From NCBI GenBank assembly GCA_944388805.1, contig CALXKE010000014.1, positions 1 through 46,284 on the forward strand: DNA of 46,284 bases. The letters run 5' to 3'. The notes under the pieces were generated by a model. It saw nothing but the letters and a program-made list of their open reading frames with translations, was not told the origin of the DNA and searched no databases. Each line of letters begins with the position of its first letter. Within the stretch, counting starts at the first letter, position 1. Origin of the DNA: an uncultured Clostridia bacterium (GTDB taxonomy: Bacteria; Bacillota; Clostridia; TANB77; CAG-508). Below, piece by piece: positions 31,994 through 34,002 of this stretch. The position numbers and the translations under genes were made by a program.

Positions 31994-33670
31994 ATGGTAA
32001 TGTATAATTGTTATCTTATTTGTGATAAAGATGATGTAAACACTAGCACAGCAAATGGAAGATTTTTTGTAAGAATGCTAACCGTTTTATCACAATTAGA
32101 ACTTGAAATTGTAAGTGAAAGAACAAAGTTTGGTTTAAATGGTGCAATTAAGTCAGGACATTTACCAGGTATTGTTCCATTAGGCTATAAAAAAGATAGT
32201 AATAAAAAAACAATAATCGATGAAACTACAAAAGATATAGTTATTAGAATATTTAATATGTATTTAGAAGGTAAAAGTTATCAACAAATTAATAATACTT
32301 TAAATGATGAAAAAGTTTTACATCCAAAATATTGGAGAGATACAACAATTATGAAGATAATAGATAATAAAGTATATATGGGTGATTATGAAAAAGGAAA
32401 ATCAAATAATAAAGATACAACAATTTATATGAATGTAGTAGAGCCAATAATTACTCGTGCTATGTGGGAAGAAGCACAACATCAGAAAGAAAAAAATCAA
32501 AGAAGTTATGCAAGAGATAGAGTTTATATATTTTTTCAAAAACTAAAATGCCCAAAATGTAATAGAATAATGAAATGCAAAGGCTCTGGAGGAACAAAGA
32601 AAAAATATATGTACTATAATTGTGAGCATTGCAAGATATATTACAGAGAAGATAAAATAGAAGAATGTTTACAAAGATTTATACTTGAATTAGTAGAATA
32701 TGATATGTCAGTAAAGAAATACTTTTTACCAATACTAGCTGACAAAAAGGAAACAAAAACAGATAAATTAGAACAAGAAATTGATACCTTGCAAAAACAA
32801 AAAGAAAGAATAAAAAAAGCATATTTAAGTAGAATAGTAGAAATGAAAGATTTTTCAGAAGATTATAAAATAATTGAAGAGAAAATTAATATTTTAGAAA
32901 CTAAAAAATGTGAAATGTTAAATATAAATCATCTATCATTTACACCACAACAATTAATGGCTGATAGAGATATTGAAAGAGAAAAACTAATAATAACAAA
33001 TCAATTAAATAATATTCTGAAGCAAGAATGGAACAAAAAATCAAAAGAAGAAAAACAAGAATTTATTTCAAAATTCATTGAGTCAATAACATTATTAAAA
33101 AATAAAAAAGGGGAATTTTATATTGATAAAATAAATTTTAGAAGTAGCTATATTGAGCAATTAACAAAATTCTTTAAATTGGGAATTGCAGATGTGTATG
33201 TACCAGTTGAAGTAAATGAAGAAGAAAAAGAAATTAGGACAAGTGTTAATATAAGTCAAGAACAATTAAATGATTATATACAAAGATTAAATCAAGAATT
33301 TGAAATAGAATTTTACGAATTATTTCCAAAAAATGCAAATGAAAATAAAGAAGAAATTGAAATAAAATTAAATAAAGAAAAACAAAAATTGATAAGATTA
33401 GTTGCTGTGAAAAATGATAAAAAATTTTCAAAAACTAAAAAAGAAAATTATAAAATTGGTGCAATAATAAGTAGTCAAAATGAAAAAATTAGAGAGAAAG
33501 TTCAAAGTAAGAATGATTTTTGTACTCCTTTATATTTCCTAACAAGCACTGAATTTTTCCTCCCTTGTCAAAATTCGATTTATGGGACTAAGTCCCAAAC
33601 CCTTTATATGATAAAATTAGAATTACAAAATAAATATTATAACAATTTTAGAATTTTGCTTGTTATTTAG
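31994..33670 (+). pseudogene. Large serine recombinase lacking its catalytic domain
   Basis: The 558-codon frame starts in the middle of a large serine recombinase, at [21 protein letters not shown] and [15 protein letters not shown] (end of the resolvase domain and long helix E). About 100 N-terminal residues with the catalytic Ser (YxRVS region) are missing. The recombinase domain, zinc ribbon (CPKC..CEHC) and coiled coil ([13 protein letters not shown]) remain. The last 50 residues ([14 protein letters not shown]..) look like read-through. It begins 90 bases after the tRNA-Gly. It cannot recombine DNA by itself and is best seen as a remnant of an integrated element. Confidence 0.85.
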
Positions 33671-33688
33671 CTTGATTTATAGTATAGT
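33660..33688 (+). promoter_or_regulatory. Promoter of the type I toxin mRNA
   Basis: TTGTTA, 17 bases, TATAGT, giving a leader of about 78 bases before the toxin ATG. Confidence 0.55.
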
Positions 33689-33772
33689 ACTAATATAGGA
33701 AATAAGAATAATTGCAGATGTGGTTGCCACTTTTAATCCACAACTTTGTGTTGTGAGAATGGAGGTGGTGCT

Positions 33773-33883
33773 ATGATAGAAGTCGTTTTATTAGAAATAA
33801 TATCCTCACTTTTATTTGCATTAGTTGTCGAAACTATTATAGTATTTGCCTTAATTATATTGGTTATAATTTTAAGCAAATAG
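33773..33883 (+). CDS. 36-aa hydrophobic peptide, type I toxin candidate
   Basis: ATG 33773 follows GGAGG by 7 bases. The product, MIEVVLLEIISSLL..ALIILVIILSK, is a single membrane helix with few charges, like holin-like/Fst-type toxins of Firmicutes. The leader folds CACAAC/GTTGTG directly before the ribosome binding site. A bidirectional terminator follows (33889-33927), and a near-consensus promoter points back at the gene from the other side. This convergent arrangement is that of the par/Fst type I systems. Toxicity is inferred. Confidence 0.65.
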   Translation: MIEVVLLEIISSLLFALVVETIIVFALIILVIILSK

Positions 33884-33884
33884 A

Positions 33885-33967
33885 CAATAAAAAACACATC
33901 TGTAACTTGCAGGTTTGATGTGTTTTTACATATTACCGGCAACCACGTTTGTGGTTACTTATTTCCT
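33885..33967 (-). ncRNA. Candidate antisense antitoxin RNA
   Basis: From the minus-strand promoter TTGACA-N17-TATAAT (33974-34002) a short RNA of about 80 bases would run to the shared terminator (AAAAAACACATC/GATGTGTTTTT). It has no ORF. Its 5' part AACCACA is complementary both to the UGUGGUU (33951-33957) of its own locus and to the UGUGGUU at the 5' end of the toxin mRNA (33719-33725), the direct-repeat device known from par. The 3' parts overlap in the terminator. Confidence 0.6.
33889..33927. terminator. Bidirectional terminator of the toxin-antitoxin pair
   Basis: AAAAACACATC/GATGTGTTTTT, with A/T runs on both sides, lies between the convergent transcripts. Confidence 0.75.
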
Positions 33968-33973
33968 ACTACT

Positions 33974-34002
33974 ATTATACTTTAAACAAAATGATTTGTC
34001 AA
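33974..34002 (-). promoter_or_regulatory. Consensus promoter of the antisense RNA
   Basis: TTGACA, 17 bases, TATAAT on the minus strand: a full-consensus promoter with no ORF downstream of it. Confidence 0.75.

Follow-up and report, generated by a model that had tools for sequence, protein, structure and literature searches.

A 343-nt stretch at positions 33660-34002 of the window (the whole stretch of DNA analysed, 46,284 nt) carries a gene for a short hydrophobic peptide that faces a strong promoter on the opposite strand. Is this a type I toxin-antitoxin system, and to which of the known kinds does it belong? The first-pass annotation had read it as a type I system and, specifically, as a par device of the Fst kind. 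Judging from the sequence and its conservation in relatives, we consider the locus to be a type I toxin-antitoxin cassette on a BsrG-like RNA frame and one of several in its genome, with a probability of about 0.8. The conservation across relatives supports the type I part of the earlier reading and its par-like layout; the assignment to the Fst kind stood less well.

Parts of the cassette in the window

The candidate toxin promoter on the plus strand, TTGTTA-N17-TATAGT (33660-33688), scored 9/12 against the consensus. A toxin mRNA starting with AGGAAATAAG is predicted at 33697-33927 of the same strand, about 230 nt long if the hairpin is its end; the ends were placed by the positions of the -10 box and the hairpin, and the mRNA may run on. 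Its leader carries a conserved motif GCAGATGTGGTTGCC (33714-33728), of which 33714-33722 could pair with 33895-33903 in the 5′ arm of the downstream hairpin. The leader is also predicted to fold over the SD sequence GGAGGTGG (33761) in a hairpin at 33720-33774, whose main stem joins 33726-33735 with 33760-33769 and for which A1 relatives show covariation. The ORF (33773-33883, MIEVVLLEIISSLLFALVVETIIVFALIILVIILSK) encodes 36 amino acids, a putative toxin of a single hydrophobic helix. The peptide gene, SD sequence and leader described before are all present in the sequence.

Beyond the ORF lies a hairpin common to both units (33890-33927), with arms AAAAACACATC (33890-33900) and GATGTGTTTTT (33917-33927) and a 16-nt loop that has a conserved UUG core. 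T runs follow it in both directions (7 T of 8 in the antisense direction and 5 of 8 in the toxin direction), in agreement with the bidirectional terminator that had been proposed. The antisense promoter, TTGACA-N17-TATAAT on the minus strand from 34002 to 33974, scored 12/12, as expected of the full consensus claimed for it. The antisense RNA is predicted at 33888-33967 (minus strand, about 80 nt by its estimated ends) and starts with AGGAAATAAG, as does the mRNA. Its 5′ hairpin AACCACAAACGTGGTT (33941-33956, minus strand) holds AACCAC, which could pair with GTGGTT in the leader. Both UGUGGUU repeats that had been reported were found, the first at 33719 as given, but the second at 33950, one base off the 33951 given for it. 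The antisense RNA had also been called free of ORFs. No ORF of at least 20 aa lies wholly inside it, but a TTG-started frame of 69 aa opens at 33942, leaves the RNA at its end and stops at 33733. The whole cassette measures about 270 bp.

We found that the antisense promoter is the sole 12/12 sigma-70 site in the 46-kb window, and a 12/12 promoter occurred in only two of 3000 dinucleotide shuffles of the 343-nt region. The overall promoter count in this region was not above chance (14 versus 15.4 expected). Therefore, the 9/12 toxin promoter alone carries little weight.

The ORF, promoters, hairpins, complementarities and selection on the peptide can be read from sequence and conservation; from them we infer that both transcripts exist and where they end, in what ratio they occur and in what order they pair, and that the peptide is toxic and the antisense RNA protective. 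The weaker promoter would give the toxin mRNA, whose leader would fold over the SD sequence and whose 5′ end GCAGAUGUG could bind the hairpin arm that follows the ORF. With the SD sequence folded and the leader paired to this arm, the intact mRNA should be poorly translated. The strong opposing promoter would give the antisense RNA (about 80 nt), presumably more of it than of the mRNA. Both might meet through their complementary hairpin loops (UUG core) and through the AACCAC of the antisense RNA and the GUGGUU of the leader, and the resulting duplex would block translation and be degraded. If the locus were lost or the antisense RNA decayed, the mRNA would be translated and the peptide would damage the membrane. 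In hok/Sok, pairing between the 5′ and 3′ parts also keeps the full-length mRNA inactive; that system is alike in this pairing and differs in its peptide and in the position of its antisense RNA.

The cassette family and its conservation

A DNA search of the window's own genome (2.02 Mb, 84% complete) with the cassette returned ten separate places at E < 1e-4, the window included. Seven copies (C14, C41, C36, C2, C8, C6 and C1) look intact, with leader, SD sequence, hydrophobic ORF, hairpin and antisense promoter side, and three (C19, C26 and C67) are decayed. The leader pattern CAGATGTGGTTN{0,2}GCC was found at 56 sites in 31 of 94 genomes, while the reversed pattern, which served as the control, gave none. 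Counting the window's own genome, 28 of the 58 genomes from the genus had it; among those from the order's other families, 3 of 36 did. When the pattern was combined with an SD sequence, matches were found in 130 of 385 genomes of the order and, in a class-wide set of 391, in one of 373 genomes outside it. This sole match (L238) was rejected as spurious, being a GC-rich site without an ORF. Such a conserved, multi-copy occurrence implied that the arrangement is not due to chance.

In a scan of named genomes, 47 loci passed the cassette check among 80 taken from at least 115 stretches. Their titles name uncultured or metagenome-assembled Clostridia, Clostridium or Eubacteriales, and one Oscillospiraceae. 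Literature searches did not show the family. With it, gut Clostridia gain a large group of candidate type I systems; all 47 checked loci come from uncultured or metagenome-assembled genomes. Such peptides escape the protein libraries used because of their shortness and divergence, and Rfam misses the window copy. Some cassettes stand in tandem or closely face each other: three leaders lie within 1.1 kb in L252, and two each in L258, L030 and L276.

A phage or plasmid origin was considered and rejected. Among 58 stretches of viral contigs with the leader pattern, only L085 is a cassette, and its peptide is Hol_Tox-like. A looser pattern gave 79 stretches in viral contigs, 15 of them with a short ORF after an SD sequence, and with hydropathy of at most 2.1. 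The window cassette had a single match among plasmids and the L008 cassette a single match among phages (39 and 45 nt, respectively).

An ORF of 25-75 aa follows the SD sequence at 111 of the 114 distinct leader sites. One of these ORFs is unrelated (L251), which leaves 110 family peptides of 36-47 aa with a median peak hydropathy of 2.73. The three sites without an ORF are two frameshifted copies (L215 and L281) and the spurious L238. The peptides form subfamilies A1, which includes that of the window, A2 and B, and the C36 peptide is intermediate. The pN/pS ratios were 0.35 in A1, 0.64 in A2 and 0.42 in B. Comparatively, the +1 frame gave 0.48, 0.78 and 0.70, a modest contrast between raw ratios. 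Because pN/pS was below 1 in all three subfamilies, the peptide looks selected as a protein and seems to be a real gene product. A profile comparison of A with B gave no support for their kinship, which rests on the shared RNA frame and the intermediate C36 peptide.

Lack of conservation of the promoter pair in homologous loci had been named beforehand as a reason to give up the reading; the pair was looked for and was present. Taking the raw best site in fixed windows, the antisense promoter scored 11-12/12 in 105 of 111 cassettes, and the toxin promoter scored 7-11/12 across the 111 and never 12. At the DNA level, a putative cis antisense RNA gene overlapping the predicted toxin mRNA is kept across the family with its promoter and terminator. 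Of the 107 cassettes, 106 have at least five T among the eight bases after the hairpin when read in the antisense direction, and 80 when read in the toxin direction. Therefore, the mRNA may run on in the quarter of copies where the T run is weak. The hairpin loop contained UUG in 93 of the 107 cassettes (46.5, sd 4.7, in shuffled sequences) and a YUNR motif in 96 (80.8, sd 4.2). Terminator pairing predicted among the seven copies of the own genome ranged from -73 to -99 for cognate pairs and from -16 to -67 for non-cognate pairs, the strongest of the latter being among the three B copies.

We tested the SD hairpin in an alignment of 28 of the 30 distinct A1 leaders; L035 and L039 were left out and 14 A2 leaders were not counted. 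Paired cells amounted to 90.4%, compared with 83.6% after shuffling, and there were 38 double-sided cells versus 9.6 (sd 2.4), a number reached by none of 500 shuffles. Two of the five measures, the pairs with double-sided change (7 versus 5.0) and the further pair types (19 versus 17.6), did not stand out; these two were reached by 35 and 114 of the 500 shuffles. In the B leaders (41 of 43, with one L252 copy and L282 left out), the hairpin is nearly invariant and covariation was not above slid controls. It appears from these alignments that compensatory changes support the SD hairpin in one subfamily, A1. An SD sequence sequestered by a 5′ hairpin was thus found in A1 and, as a predicted fold, in the window.

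The first 20 nt of the leader showed a mean predicted pairing of -15.6 with the region after their own ORF (shuffled, -9.3); in 112 of 113 cases the pairing was stronger than the average over 20 shuffles. With the antisense 5′ end the mean was -14.1 (shuffled, -10.2), stronger in 109 of 113. The GUGGUU:AACCAC complementarity between leader and antisense RNA is short, and the cognate partner was not always the best in swaps. Because most leaders were chosen by their motif, the variant leaders matter. In C41 and C36, the leader and the hairpin have both changed yet still pair (-14.9 and -14.2). L302 is weaker (-12.1), the pairing of L035 is poor (-6.6), and the pairing of leader and antisense RNA is weak in C41 (-8.9) and C36 (-8.0).

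Both RNAs start alike in six of the seven own copies, C1 being the exception; in the window, AGGAAATAAG stands at 33697 and its complement at 33958. Variants of the 5′ end agree within a cassette, as in C41, where AGAAAATGAG begins both RNAs. Over 104 of 108 eligible cassettes, a few of them with a misplaced anchor, the identity of the first 12 nt within RNA pairs was 9.69, compared with 9.42 (sd 0.054) when partners were permuted within subgroups, and none of 2000 permutations reached the observed value. This difference is slight and may be partly due to shared descent.

Relation to known type I systems

Hol_Tox genes, searched by protein alone, were found in 29 of 249 genomes of the phylum, plus the B. 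subtilis and L. lactis controls. Several of these loci follow the same cassette plan, with leaders like GCAGGGTGTGGTTGCCACC, an SD hairpin, AACCACCCTGC complementary to the leader and an antisense 5′ hairpin; in this cassette reading the toxin was recognised in 20 of 30 loci. Likeness to the family leader motif reached p ≤ 0.033 in 6 of 20 Hol_Tox loci chosen by protein, four of the six being from one genus. Pooling 21 loci, L085 included, gave 84.1 (42 degrees of freedom), a figure that treats related loci as independent. The leader of L322 also carries the family motif. The Rfam BsrG model matched Hol_Tox loci L320 (7.8e-9), L347 (2.9e-7) and L325 (1.3e-5), all below the gathering score. Three of the 29 listed BsrG matches were read. 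L470 (E 8.3e-6), from the same order as the window, has the leader GCAGAAGCGGTTAGCCACC and encodes MITYEEMNLMFMFGMLIVAILNFKNTKK, which is Hol_Tox-like; its antisense side, CCGCTTAAGCGGTTAGCC, is closely styled like the CCACAAACGTGGTTTGCC of the family. L471 (1430-1830, E 0.0126) belongs to another family of this order; its cassette is built alike but encodes a short peptide of a different kind, MPVIKTDYISLLIEVIIIASFLKILINKKYK. L472 has no such cassette at the place read. In L085 (12300-13100), a contig of a viral collection, the gene of a Hol_Tox-like peptide has a leader almost identical to A2 leaders. A match to a type-P5 twister ribozyme lies near this gene (L085, 13838-13907).

Matched 5′ ends, of other sequences, were seen by eye in Hol_Tox loci L320 (AGAGTAATCGG), L325 (AAGGTAATCGG) and L470 (GATAAAGGT), and also in L318 and L324. 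Since the Rfam structure of BsrG draws an outer helix that joins the 5′ end to a stretch beyond the hairpin, matched 5′ ends are a known part of the BsrG model. As modelled, such a helix requires the mRNA to extend beyond the hairpin so that its two ends can pair. The matched ends seem worth testing in the established Bacillus model.

The BsrG model (RF01412) did not match the window cassette at E ≤ 10 or L001, L008, L017 and L063 at E ≤ 3, and no match in 21 genomes passed its cut-off. Its sole match in the own genome fell on the C1 cassette (E 6.07), which is at noise level because 7 of 14 control genomes matched too; the best match in G005 (E 1.26) was also on a family cassette. An Rfam scan gave no match on the cassette and, elsewhere, tRNAs and weak matches only. 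The antisense region of L063 matched the S. pyogenes RNA Spy779816 at E 0.36, a match absent in a repeat search. Profile comparison of the family peptides with Hol_Tox (PF16935) gave probabilities of 2.6 and 5.0, and thus no detectable homology. In a Pfam scan of 17 peptides at E ≤ 10, no Fst model was among the 13 families matched, and we take Pfam to include such a model. The sole good match was to Hol_Tox (2e-5), which we took to be that of the L085 outgroup peptide. The best NCBIfam value was 0.076, and the type I toxin model PepG1 reached 0.14 for one member. Three family peptides tested against PHROGs and PADLOC gave no significant match.

Among known systems, the RNA frame seems to most resemble that of Hol_Tox/BsrG loci. 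Both have a leader of the form GCAG..G.GGTT.GCC with an SD hairpin, a post-ORF hairpin complementary to the leader (a helix that the BsrG model draws) and an antisense RNA with a 5′ hairpin, and their two RNAs start alike. However, the family peptide has no detectable homology to Hol_Tox and no Pfam match, and the window copy is unrecognised by the BsrG model. PMC6562991 reports bsrG/SR4, bsrE/SR5 and txpA/RatA of Bacillus subtilis, which are Hol_Tox relatives, as type I systems whose pairs overlap by 100-140 bp, compared with about 40-50 bp here if the mRNA stops at the hairpin. These likenesses suggest that in type I loci the RNA frame is longer-lived than the toxin, and such systems could therefore be found by their frame. 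A bolder version, which we hold to be possible but doubtful, is that one BsrG-like frame of about 270 bp has retained its leader, hairpins and matched 5′ ends while the peptide was repeatedly swapped or remade (A, B, Hol_Tox and the L471 peptide in one order), that in this uncultured lineage it is a selfish addiction unit which has reached about ten places of a single genome, and that orphan antisense genes are anti-addiction copies.

As described in PMC7472228, par of pAD1 (Fst/RNA II) has convergent promoters, a bidirectional terminator that is the main overlap, an SD-sequestering 5′ hairpin, a 5′-3′ helix, a U-turn loop of the YUNR type and an mRNA of about 230 nt. Most of the par features of layout are seen or predicted here, as they would be in a true par member whose peptide had diverged. 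The convergent layout claimed earlier is indeed supported by conservation. However, the peptides had no Fst match, as the annotation itself had sensed, the window peptide is without a PxxxG motif, and in its leader, antisense hairpin and matched 5′ ends the cassette looks like Hol_Tox/BsrG loci. In addition, the 5′ ends of the cassette form an inverted repeat, and one hairpin arm gives the complementarity. Membership in par/Fst is therefore highly improbable.

The pairs CD2517.1-RCd8, CD2907.1-RCd9 and CD0956.2-RCd10 of Clostridioides difficile, as described in PMC6563280, are also clostridial and have a small hydrophobic toxin and a convergent overlapping antisense RNA; their toxins have 50-53 aa, compared with 36-47 aa here. 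The cassette would act in the manner of par and of BsrG-type loci. Since its peptide showed neither an Fst nor a Hol_Tox signature and the BsrG model did not recognise it, we filed the cassette under neither par/Fst nor Hol_Tox/BsrG. It is novel as a family, not as a principle.

Genomic setting and alternative readings

The window copy lies in an island, since it stands between a tRNA-Gly(tcc) at the island border (31831-31904, plus strand), a serine recombinase ORF without the first part of the resolvase domain (31994-33670, plus strand) and the gene of a 170-aa membrane protein without a Pfam match over the cut-off (34027-34539, plus strand). The accessory-island setting of the first-pass annotation thus holds for this copy, but it is no visible trait of the family. 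Around the 47 checked loci, the scan covered 85 of 165 near ORFs and the 76 far ORFs in full. Among the protein families listed (25 of 90 and 25 of 87), none was matched by more than 2 of the 85 near or 3 of the 76 far ORFs, and 2 far ORFs matched Resolvase/Recombinase. The neighbours are mixed chromosomal genes, with no mobile gene recurring among the listed families, and both flanks of some copies are kept across species (L017 with L029 and L068). At C19 (L010) there is a second version of the membrane protein gene (82% identity in 592 bases), with a toxin remnant and a tRNA-Thr next to it. It looks as though a single type of island were found at two tRNA genes.

Many copies standing between ordinary chromosomal genes, with flanks preserved between species, would also suit a non-toxic regulatory or signalling membrane peptide under antisense control. 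A strong antisense promoter, occlusion of the SD sequence and patchy presence (130 of 385 genomes) fit the control of a toxin better, and we consider a regulatory peptide unlikely. It could also be that the cassette is a dispersed MITE-like repeat with an incidental ORF, in which the matched ends are terminal inverted repeats. It is multi-copy, its 5′ ends are matched and inverted, and it occurs in tandem groups such as L252. However, pN/pS is below 1, and the promoters, SD hairpin and loop are conserved. Moreover, Hol_Tox loci have matched ends as well, and the Rfam BsrG model draws such ends as a helix, which makes a mere repeat very unlikely. The least probable reading is that of a decayed remnant in an old island. 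The truncated recombinase next to it and the decayed copies at C19, C26 and C67 point that way, but the window copy retains all of its parts, the 12/12 promoter included.

Loss of one half of the type I cassette was observed in both directions. In orphan antisense genes (L293, L296, L299, L300, L312 and, in the own genome, C26, 16061-16257), the antisense half is retained from promoter to terminator, but other DNA stands where the toxin promoter, leader and start would be. Sites of the antisense side numbered 36 in 55 genomes; among the 30 that were read, five lack a toxin start, three end at contig ends and three are intact leader variants. Opposite decay was observed in L222 and L241, which lack the antisense side, and in L251, which keeps the leader without the toxin. 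In L222 and L241, both from genome G097, the hairpin loop is interrupted close to contig ends, and the toxin ORF is intact with the antisense side replaced; the insert resembles the end of an IS3-type element. It is suggestive only that the antisense half may outlast the toxin half.

Another element was observed upstream of the toxin promoter in 13 of the 111 cassettes (e.g. L063, L283, L252 and L276). This dyad of about 75 nt (GGTGCC..CGTAGNTATNTACAACT..GGCTC..ACGATTGATACAAATATCAATC) lies on the same strand at a fixed spacing. It also occurs beside unrelated genes, stands alone in L463-L466, L468 and L469, and precedes a family peptide in L467.
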